A stretch of 52,227 nt of DNA from Pirellulales bacterium (GTDB taxonomy: Bacteria; Planctomycetota; Planctomycetia; Pirellulales; JAEUIK01): contig JAIESQ010000090.1 in the NCBI GenBank assembly GCA_019745975.1, positions 1 to 52,227 of the forward strand, read 5' to 3'. The notes beneath the pieces are model-generated. The model worked only from the letters and a program-made list of their open reading frames with translations, was not told the DNA's origin and made no database searches. Below, piece by piece: positions 68-42,968 of this stretch (position 1 is the first letter of the stretch; every line of letters begins with the position of its first letter). Both the position numbers and the translations under genes were made by a program.

Positions 68-397
68 ACGGTTACGCATTGGCCGAAGCGGACTTCGCAA
101 CGGGAAAAAGCCTGTTGTCCGTGTCAAATACTCGATCCGGGGAAGTTGACGAGGATGGAGAAGGCCGTTGCGAGCGGCGCTGATGGCGAGAGACGGCTGC
201 GATGCCTGCGGGCGTCGGGCGACTGAGCCGTCAAACTCGCCGCACAGCGCCCAGTTTCTAGCGTAGCGCGGAGGATGATCGAACAAGTGAGTTGATCACT
301 GCAAGAACCTGTCGCCAGCGCTCGGCCGCGAGGCGCGCGTAGCGGTGGCGCAAGCCGCCGACCAAGCGGGATGCTCACCACGGGCCCACCCCCACCC

Positions 398-560
398 GGA
401 CGCAAATCGCCTGCCCGGACGCAAACCGGACGATCACCCGGACGCAAACTGCCCGGTGTTACACCCGCCCCAAGCTGTGCCCTCTATTTGATTTACGGTC
501 CAATAACAACACACCCGGACGCACCCGGACGCAAATTCCCGGGCAACTTTATTCTGGGGG
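398..560 (+). repeat. dispersed repeat of GGACGCAAA units (copy A)
   Basis: The 9-mer GGACGCAAA occurs at 398-406, 417-425, 440-448 and 527-535, with a variant at 517-525. The spacing is irregular (10, 14 and about 70 bases). The block ends with ATTCCCGGGCAA followed by an ACTTTATTCTGGG-like tail and a G run. The same end, in the opposite orientation, is found at 41388-41540. The rest of bases 68-697 shows no gene I can support: reading frames there are short and have no family resemblance. Confidence 0.7.
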
Positions 561-698
561 GGGTGATGGTAGACCTACGACCAGGTCGGCAACCTAATCT
601 CCATGACCGAGCCGGCGTCGGGGGTCACGCCGCTCGATGGCCGCGCTGAAGTTCGCGGCCAAAGATCGGTCGCGGCGAACACGCCGCTGCGATCGGCC

Positions 699-41151: not shown

Positions 41152-41387
41152 GGCCAACGTCGCCCAGGCCGCACAAGCCCCGCCTCACGCCCGCCGGGAC
41201 CAGCGCCGGTGAGAGTCGATCCCCAGTCGAAGTTCGGCGCTGCGAATGTGTAGTCGTAACCCAAGATGGATCGCCTAGCGAGCACGAGGGCAGCCGCAAA
41301 CCGCAGGACAACTCCTTACTGCACTTAACGGCTCCTGACTTGCGCCTGAGCTTACCGAAGCATCATCAGCCGCAGGCCGTTGGGGGG

Positions 41388-41540
41388 CCCAGAATAAGTT
41401 TGCCCGGGAATTTGCGTCCAATGCGTCCAACGGTGCTGTTATAAGCGGTTAAGTCCTTTCTTTGCATCGAGTTATTCTTGGACGCAAATCGTCGGGCGAT
41501 TGCGTCCAGTTTGCGCCCAAAGGGAGTTTTGCGTCCAAAG
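41388..41540 (-). repeat. dispersed repeat of GGACGCAAA units (copy B)
   Basis: TTTGCGTCC occurs at 41411-41419, related forms near 41422-41428 and 41510-41516, and GGACGCAAA at 41480-41488 in the other orientation, with TTTTGCGTCC near 41527. The block begins with CCCAGAATAAGTTTGCCCGGGAA, split here as CCCAGAATAAG and TTGCCCGGGAATT, which is the inverse of the end of copy A (398-560). Both copies are non-coding. Confidence 0.7.
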
Positions 41541-41776
41541 CACTGAGCTCGCGCGAAGGGTCACGTAATTGAGGCGCGGCGCGCAGGGCGGACGCAGCTC
41601 TTCGCTCCGACTTTGACAAACGATTCGTGGAACCGCGAAGTCCTTGGGCAAGATGCTTGGCGCAAGGCTGCAGACTTCAGACCGCAGGCTTGCAGGTAAC
41701 GATGCAGCGCGCGGTGTGTTCGGCGCGCAGGCTGGCGCGCCAGGTTACTCCTGTTTTTTGGAAGGTGTTGTTTATT

Positions 41777-41840
41777 TGTAGCCGGCCTCTGTGAGGCCGG
41801 ACCGGGGTCTGCACGTCCGGGGTCACAGACCCCGGCTACA
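41777..41840. repeat. 64-bp cruciform with two nested hairpins
   Basis: TGTAGCCGG (41777-41785) pairs with CCGGCTACA (41832-41840). Inside are two further hairpins, CCGGCCTC/GAGGCCGG (41782-41800) and CCGGGGTCTG/CAGACCCCGG (41802-41834). No U tract follows. It fits a REP-like element of this genome. Confidence 0.7.
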
Positions 41841-41893
41841 GATTGACGTTCTCGTTGCGGCCGTGAGGACAGGCGTGCCAGTTCGATCGCCAG

Positions 41894-41918
41894 CATGCCC
41901 ACGACGAGCGTGGGCATG
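41894..41918. repeat. hairpin repeat CATGCCCACG/CGTGGGCATG
   Basis: A perfect 10-bp stem with loop ACGAG is followed by GCACCC. The stem is identical to that at 12075-12099, also followed by GCACCC, so this is a second copy of the same dispersed hairpin. Confidence 0.75.
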
Positions 41919-42220
41919 GCACCCGCGCGACTCGGTGGCTGGTCTGCATTGTAGCGAGCCGGTGGCTATTTGTCAACCATTATTATGGTCATTTCTATGA
42001 TCTTTTTATGACGCCCTAAGTTCCTGGGCGCCACGGCTGGCGGGCACCGACTGTCGTAGGCGGGTGGTCCTGGCCGGGCTTGCCCTCCGGATTCTTACCG
42101 CAAAGGCCACGAAGGATCGCAAAGAAAAGACGAACGCTGCCAACGAGCCGGGCAATGAACGGCCACTTTCAGGGCCGAAGGCAATTAACTGAACGGCGGG
42201 GCTTTGGGGCTGCCAGGCGA

Positions 42221-42396
42221 CACAGGGCTCACGCCCTGTGCTGGTGCGAAGCGGCCCTGCAGGCCGCAAGACAAATTGCGAGTCCCCGTGCGACGACCAG
42301 GCAAGTCGTATCTTCGGCCTGAAGGGCCGGTTCTGTCAGCCGAGGCCGTCAGGCCTCGGTACGGTGCCCCCGCGTATCTCGGACCTGTCAGGTCCG
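42221..42396. repeat. five tandem hairpins
   Basis: Stem-loops occur at 42221-42240 (CACAGGGC/GCCCTGTG), 42251-42267 (GCGGCC/GGCCGC), 42315-42329 (CGGCC/GGCCG), 42340-42359 (CCGAGGCC/GGCCTCGG) and 42380-42396 (CGGACC/GGTCCG). Together with the hairpins before and after, they fill most of the 1.3-kb gap between pfkA and the gene at 42465. I see no gene in 41152-42452. Confidence 0.7.
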
Positions 42397-42886: not shown

Positions 42887-42931
42887 CCCAGGCCTGACGG
42901 CCTGGGCTGTTGCGAAGCGGCCTTTCAGGCC
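42887..42931. repeat. two hairpins related to those at 42251
   Basis: CCCAGGCC/GGCCTGGG (42887-42906) is followed by TGCGAAGCGGCC and the GGCC/GGCC hairpin (42919-42931). GCGAAGCGGCC also precedes the hairpin at 42251, so both belong to one repeat family. Confidence 0.65.
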
Positions 42932-42968
42932 TCGATACGACTAGTGCGACATCACACGCGCTGCGGAG

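Follow-up and report, generated by a model that had tools for sequence, protein, structure and literature searches.

Two stretches of the window, by which we mean the whole 52,227-nucleotide contig of a Pirellulales bacterium that was analysed (contig C160 of its own genome, G000, which comprises 6.98 Mb in 204 contigs), hold several GGACG motifs that run into a shared end, and the locus raises the question of what kind of sequence this arrangement represents. The earlier note had taken it for a two-copy repeat and had offered three readings, a non-autonomous mobile element, a cluster of protein-binding sites and a non-coding RNA. The first of these is the best supported, as 114 dispersed, intergenic, lineage-specific and mosaic copies were found, and the other two are both compatible with mobility. 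The explanation we favour, with modest confidence, is a non-autonomous, lineage-specific mosaic repeat that bears a promoter in its long form, is spread in trans and is shuffled by recombination.

The two copies in the window and their spread through the genome

The window contains seven occurrences of the motif GGACGCAAA, where 0.70 would be expected, and a count of at least seven was reached in 0 of 100 shuffles. Four of these occurrences belong to copy 1 (plus strand) and three to copy 2 (two minus, one plus). There were two exact matches to ATTCCCGGGCAA, at 535-546 (+) and 41400-41411 (-), and looser matches in the window were at chance level. Copy 1 includes six direct GGACG motifs, at 398, 417, 428, 440, 517 and 527, and no inverted motif. 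Both copies share the end core and copy 2 lies on the minus strand, in agreement with the common conserved end and the inverse arrangement first described. The repeat is present at the intervals originally assigned to it, 398-560 and 41388-41540, but the feature runs far to the left of them, and a promoter-like site of copy 2 is located at 41976-41948. The coordinates are collected in Table 1.

Table 1. Features of the two copies, in window coordinates
Feature	Position	Strand	Basis
Copy 1, subfamily D block, prefix CCCGGACG, right-hand module of unit	394-563	+	Covariance-model match C160:412-562, 48.5 bits
Copy 1 constant end GGACGCAAATTCCCGGGCAAnnTTATTCTGG, common to all four subfamilies	527-557	+	Read from sequence and end-core search
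Copy 1 right junction, run of 8 G	556-563	+	Read from sequence
Copy 2 block of subfamily B, prefix TTGGACG, with direct motifs and a single inverted motif	41384-41542	-	Covariance-model match, 150.5 bits; row L018, alignment A1
Copy 2 first direct motif, proposed helix 5' arm	41528-41536	-	Motif search, alignment
Copy 2 inverted motif, GGACGCAAA on plus strand, proposed helix 3' arm	41480-41488	+	Motif search, alignment
Copy 2 constant end core GGACGCAAATTCCCGGGCAA	41400-41419	-	Core search
Copy 2 unit body hairpin module GACTTCGCG..CGTTTGTC	41604-41642	-	L018:1705-1743 minus; family alignment A3
REPIN-like inverted pair, GTAG-started palindromes in copy 2 unit body	41778-41839	-	Read from sequence
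Copy 2 unit body hairpin GGTGCCATGCCCACG..CGTGGGCATGC, REP-type module, matched in other genomes of the order too	41888-41926	-	
Sigma-70-like promoter TTGACA-17-TACAAT, 11/12, at the left of the copy 2 unit	41948-41976	-	Pattern match

The 20-bp end core, allowing at most 3 mismatches, had 112 matches in the own genome (58 forward and 54 reverse) and the reversed-pattern control had none. A covariance model (R1) built from 61 copies of subfamilies A, B and C gave 116 own-genome matches at E <=0.01, of which two were opposite-strand shadows of better matches, and 114 distinct copies were retained once the TTATTCTGG end was required. The repeat is thus far from two-copy. The earlier note had also allowed that no further copies might exist or that the similarity might be confined to a 9-mer at chance level; neither was the case, given these matches, the excess of GGACGCAAA in the window and conservation that extends past the motif.

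A search of relatives, which the earlier note had proposed, returned no covariance-model match in 395 other genomes of the order, under strict filters that scored at most 7 candidates per genome and that weak relatives may escape. A simpler core search covered a sample of 97 genomes including the own genome, with no other genome of the genus among them, and matches with at most 3 mismatches occurred in 52 of the other 96. These were rejected as relatives and look like chance or conserved genes; five such loci were checked (L032, L059, L040, L039 and L047), and all except L047 fell in one conserved reading frame, RRG.SDL..RKFSGN, which we take to be lipoate-protein-ligase-like. Two exact 20-mer matches in GTDB species genomes (Selenomonadales and Myxococcales bins), a collection that may omit the window's own record, fit chance and were likewise set aside.

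None of 95 rows, a set in which a spurious plus-strand row for L085 is still counted here and in the subfamily comparison, overlapped a gene of a home-made caller, and coding DNA was ruled out for the block on this overlap count. An open reading frame begun at an ATG in the body hairpin ran for 12 to 134 codons with no common end, and some frame of the six was open across the 160-nt block in 54 of 110 cases, which has little meaning in GC-rich DNA. The original view that no protein is encoded was confirmed in that no conserved reading frame was found. The next downstream gene was in the direction of the block in 51 of 90 cases and opposite in 39, and neighbouring proteins (150 of 161 compared, each cut to at most 300 aa) matched 169 Pfam families, none of which had more than 4 members. 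Copy number and intergenic spread are computed quantities, as are the subfamilies, fixed layout and coordinated prefixes described below. Several copies were located at contig ends, which makes the repeat relevant to the assembly of such genomes.

Rfam matches in the window at gathering scores were limited to a tRNA and two Acido-Lenti-1 matches (RF01687), with none for the repeat and no intron RNA. The Acido-Lenti-1 matches are located upstream of the copy 2 unit at 42221-42266 and 42887-42932 (+), the former barely above the gathering score.

The block and the longer unit

The copies were divided into four subfamilies by the motif adjoining the end block, which differ in the bases preceding GGACG: subfamily A (prefix TTAGGACG, 53 of 114 copies), D (CCCGGACG, 37), C (CGGGACG, 13) and B (TTGGACG, 11). 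The A/B/C block is about 160 bp long and consists of five direct motifs and one inverted motif. The distance from the first motif to the end block was exactly 117 bp in 59 of 61 A/B/C copies, these 61 being the 63 non-D rows minus L006, which is left-truncated, and the L085 plus-strand row, a spurious opposite-strand match; 59 of the 61 were gapless. The left edge of the block was whole in 61 of the 63 non-D rows. The irregular spacing noted originally is thus a property of the motifs along a single copy but does not hold between A/B/C copies. Inverted motifs were present in 0 of 33 D blocks, and the D motif chains varied in length by steps, with lengths of 129, 187, 264 and 341 bp among others. 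The end was constant across the four subfamilies despite diverged bodies (mean identity 0.63 between A and C, 0.61 between B and C).

Sequence between the motifs was conserved from copy to copy, and conservation of the block and its constant end extended far past the motif. This conservation sets the repeat apart from a CRISPR array, as do the unequal spacings within a copy, and the earlier exclusion of such an array stands. Two tandem pairs were observed, at L196 694-916 and L112 1501-1722, in each of which a D block was followed by a C block about 200 bp on; the linker was AGGTGGGG..AGGTCGACGCG-like, and parts of it also followed single copies.

The GGACGC block forms the constant module on the right-hand side of a longer non-coding unit that reaches at most about 0.7 kb. 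Similarity between copies reached mainly leftward, over approximately 0.5-0.74 kb in the longest copies, and in the long form a sigma-70-like promoter was followed by hairpin modules and then by the block. The 34-bp promoter pattern had 11 matches in the genome, all 11 of which precede a block on their own strand. Among the 79 of 114 copies with enough flank, the promoter pattern was found 260-760 bp upstream on the sense strand of 26 (25 distinct places, as two of the matches are one promoter), compared to 2 in the antisense direction, and windows downstream yielded 4 and 0; the other 53 had no such pattern in that interval. The hairpin modules included 34 matches of GACTTCGCG.., a GGTGCCATGCCCACG hairpin and 47 matches of a TTAGCCGCGG..GCGCGCTAGC palindrome, which often stood as inverted pairs to the left of the block. 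When a 592-base query taken from one unit was compared to 56 other genomes, with scoring limited to 10 candidates in each, matches were obtained in 15; all those listed were in the GGTGCCATGCCCACG region or, in two genomes, in a GCTAGCGCGCGG palindrome, and none of those listed was in the block region. Left flanks were common to groups of copies, and the left boundary of the unit is not fixed.

Pairing, prefixes and the RNA and protein-site readings

Direct copy 1 and the inverted copy of the A/B/C block would form a helix 11-13 pairs long that encloses a loop of 38 alignment columns. Standard pairs were present in 94.8% of 793 cells and in at most 50.4% when the two were slid against each other. 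At the helix prefix two-sided changes were evident (AU 41, GC 9, UA 9, other 2). Such changes affected 3 of the 13 block-helix pairs and 3 of the 6 pairs in the GACTTCGCG.. body hairpin, for which alignment A3 took 32 of 34 hairpins and all 186 cells were paired in 31 distinct rows. The only cells of the body hairpin that were not Watson-Crick in the sense reading were 4, all G-U, and none was unpaired. For both helices the share of paired cells and the covariation score exceeded all 500 shuffles. Two of the five covariation measures, those counting pairs and pair types, were not above the shuffles (409 and 473 of 500 for the block helix, 265 and 265 of 500 for the body hairpin), which indicates few independent covariation events.

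These helices bear on a possible though doubtful reading, that of a dispersed, multicopy family of structured non-coding RNAs in which each unit is a small-RNA gene and its 3' domain, with the GGACG motifs and helix, would be a binding partner, such as a sponge, for a protein or another RNA. The sense-strand excess of the promoter pattern, the promoter of copy 2, the two-sided helix changes and the sense-reading G-U cells are all consistent with it, and the RNA reading of the earlier note is compatible with the data to that extent. In the 12 of 18 bodies that were compared to shuffles the body also folded better than these, with a mean z of -2.8 in the sense and -2.3 in the antisense direction. 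Weighing on the other side are the folding of the block, which favoured neither strand (mean z -2.14 and -2.06; 25 of 63 rows), D blocks that folded no better than shuffles (z -0.30 and 0.05), the two covariation measures within the shuffles in either helix, the 53 copies that had no upstream promoter pattern and the absence of any Rfam family at the gathering score.

Raw folding energy was considered as an indicator of the RNA strand and was rejected. It favoured antisense in 18 of 18 bodies, which counts against the RNA reading, in 26 of 28 D blocks and in 68 of 93 downstream controls. Base composition is one cause of this bias in the body. As shuffling removed the preference or turned it slightly to sense, no conclusion on the strand was drawn.

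CsrB/RsmZ RNAs, which are multi-GGA sponges, combine repeated GGA core motifs, hairpins and a promoter of their own and are encoded at one to few loci. The repeat resembles them at the sequence level in the first three respects but differs in that the whole motif with its prefix is conserved and in its more than 100 loci.

Direct copies 1 to 5 had the two-base prefix of the inverted copy in 58, 59, 45, 60 and 52 of 61 rows, respectively. The idea that the prefix of copy 1 alone tracks the inverted copy was thereby ruled out, as copies 2 and 4 track it equally well, and the prefix agreement marks out no single pairing partner. By length of pairing with the inverted copy, direct copy 1 was the longest (mean 12.4 nt) with copy 5 near it (11.7). 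In the chimeric copy L080, two motifs of B type lie between an A-type copy 1 and an A-type inverted copy.

Agreement of copies 1, 2 and 4 with the inverted prefix goes beyond what a pairing partner alone would account for, and together with the fixed spacing it argues for a second alternative, in which the block is a cluster of sites for a DNA-binding protein with a role in chromosome organisation or regulation. The protein would read the prefix with GGACG and the subfamilies would follow paralogous proteins. The protein-binding reading first put forward was kept on the strength of direct and inverted motifs with a coordinated prefix, and the recount of prefixes, which strengthened it, led us to weight our favoured explanation lower. 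We regard it as unlikely, however, given that conservation of the block and constant end continues well past the motif, that D blocks have no inverted motif, that there is no fixed relation to neighbouring genes and that copy 1 has the longest pairing to the inverted copy, even if copy 5 comes near.

Right junction, exchange between copies and possible mobility

In 100 of 114 copies the 14 nt that follow TTATTCTGG held a G or C run of five or more, which was so in 9, 3 and 4 of 114 for control windows placed more to the right; the count of 100 leaves out the GG of TTATTCTGG itself, and with that GG included it was 110 of 114. The junction form GGGGGACCCCC was common (37 of 114 copies), and further right-hand sequence was common to some copies (AGGTGGGGA.., GTGACATTC). 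Since this shared sequence lies past the G/C run, the right boundary may lie beyond the run, which may itself reflect either a preference for certain targets or an element tail that is unstable.

Most right flanks seem unrelated to one another. One was found in four places only, the other three being 86-89% identical to the query, and at the same junction these four abut D, B, A/B-chimeric and C blocks. Chimeras joining A and B or A and C parts were also found, for example L080, L005, L028 and L110. Paralogous flanks with different blocks, together with the chimeras, indicate that blocks were exchanged in place, whether through recombination or through insertion more than once into one site. 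The G/C run at the right junction, the chimeric blocks and the paralogous sites with blocks of different subfamilies were, like the promoter-pattern enrichment, computed from the genome.

The four paralogous flanks, as well as the left flanks common to groups of copies, would also be expected if the copies arose mainly from segmental duplication and gene conversion, with no transposition. As the principal source this is very unlikely, given that most right flanks are unrelated and that the neighbouring proteins are so diverse; duplication alone would have to have copied bare intergenic DNA very many times. The two processes could nevertheless have given rise to some of the copies.

No empty site was found among right flanks within the fetched loci or for one flank searched genome-wide, and an RHS-type right flank was present only at its two element-bearing places. 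Because no empty site was found, the case for mobility is drawn from dispersal. An autonomous copy was not recognised, as no recurrent transposase was among the 25 families listed for the 150 flanking proteins. Terminal inverted repeats of the block were not found either (the outer 25 nt had a mean of 7.3 of 25 positions identical to the reverse-complemented other end in 75 of 77 non-D copies), nor was a target duplication at the block flanks, where the longest shared word was 4.21 compared to 4.11 for shuffled pairs and 39 of 200 shuffles were as high.

Under the mobile-repeat explanation, the units would be a non-autonomous element that relies for its copying on an enzyme provided in trans; this enzyme may act on hairpin (single-stranded) DNA, and the constant right end would be its recognition or joining site. 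The likeliest candidate would be one of the Y1/HUH (RAYT-like) transposases of the genome, a link suggested by how many of these genes there are, by the hairpins and by the absence of target duplications. Recombination between copies would then exchange and homogenise the blocks. Matches to Y1_Tnp in the own genome numbered 15, 14 of them over the cut-off. The direct flank test gave the Y1/HUH link no support, as a block was in the fetched flank of 1 of 12 Y1 loci examined (12 of the 15 matches), approximately the chance level by a rough estimate. At that locus, L177 409-1529 (G000:C165), the Y1 transposase match is about 0.6 kb from a D block.

In PMC3733652, REP, BIME and REPIN sequences are defined as palindromes of 20-40 bp of which one end carries a GTAG or CGTC tag, and GTAG, the tag described there for REP palindromes, begins the inverted pair in the body of the copy 2 unit. 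The repeat is like them in its high copy number, intergenic location, hairpins, mosaic modules and lineage specificity, in the REP-type hairpins, often inverted pairs, held by the long units and in the abundance of Y1 genes in the genome. However, the REP-like parts are body modules and not the block, which in subfamilies A, B and C has its ~160 bp, 38-column loop and five direct motifs in place of a 20-40 bp palindrome; the long units carry a promoter, all units have one constant right end, and flanking by a cognate RAYT was not seen beyond the single Y1 locus with a block. With MITEs the repeat has in common that it is short, non-coding, high in copy number and dispersed, but its ends are asymmetric, with neither terminal inverted repeats nor target duplication.

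Eukaryotic SINE-like retroposons have a left promoter, a constant right end, no coding capacity, a variable left extent and subfamilies, and the repeat has all of these features too. A bacterial SINE-like element is conceivable, in which a promoter-driven, hairpin-rich RNA or its single-stranded DNA would have given rise to more than 100 copies in one lineage, with the right end as recognition site, a prefix code that separates subfamilies and blocks swapped like cassettes, although we think this improbable. The differences are that no reverse transcriptase of the RVT_1 family (PF00078), the only one searched, was found in the own genome, in a search whose control was positive in 3 of 14 genomes, and that the left edge of the block is usually whole and not randomly cut. 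Nor did the Rfam scan of the window match an intron RNA family, as would be expected of a group II intron derivative. Since a defining feature of each was looked for and not found, we do not claim membership in the REP, MITE, retroposon or CRISPR classes.

In an open-access literature search, no description of the repeat was found among the matches listed; absence from print is not claimed. On those matches, what appears to be new is the ordered unit itself. Approximately 114 hairpin-rich non-coding units, often promoter-bearing and with a constant end over diverged subfamilies, make up a large, ordered repeat family for a 7-Mb genome. If mobile, it would provide a bacterial system for how non-autonomous elements that have no inverted ends spread and stay distinct, and if transcribed for a purpose it would be, in our judgement, an unusually large bacterial RNA gene family.

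Other sequences were observed beside the units. Intergenic quasi-repeats of the short words CACTGAACACTGAAAAC and GGAGAACAGGAGAAAGGAGA were located next to units at L009, L083, L087, L099 and other own-genome loci. To the right of copy 1, at 573-623 (+) of the window, a YD/RHS-like stretch TYDQVGNLISMTEPASG was recognised by eye beside a guaA-like open reading frame (699-2282, -), and RHS-like reading frames were directly right of the block at L061 and L070 too, which suggests that remnants of RHS-like genes border several units.
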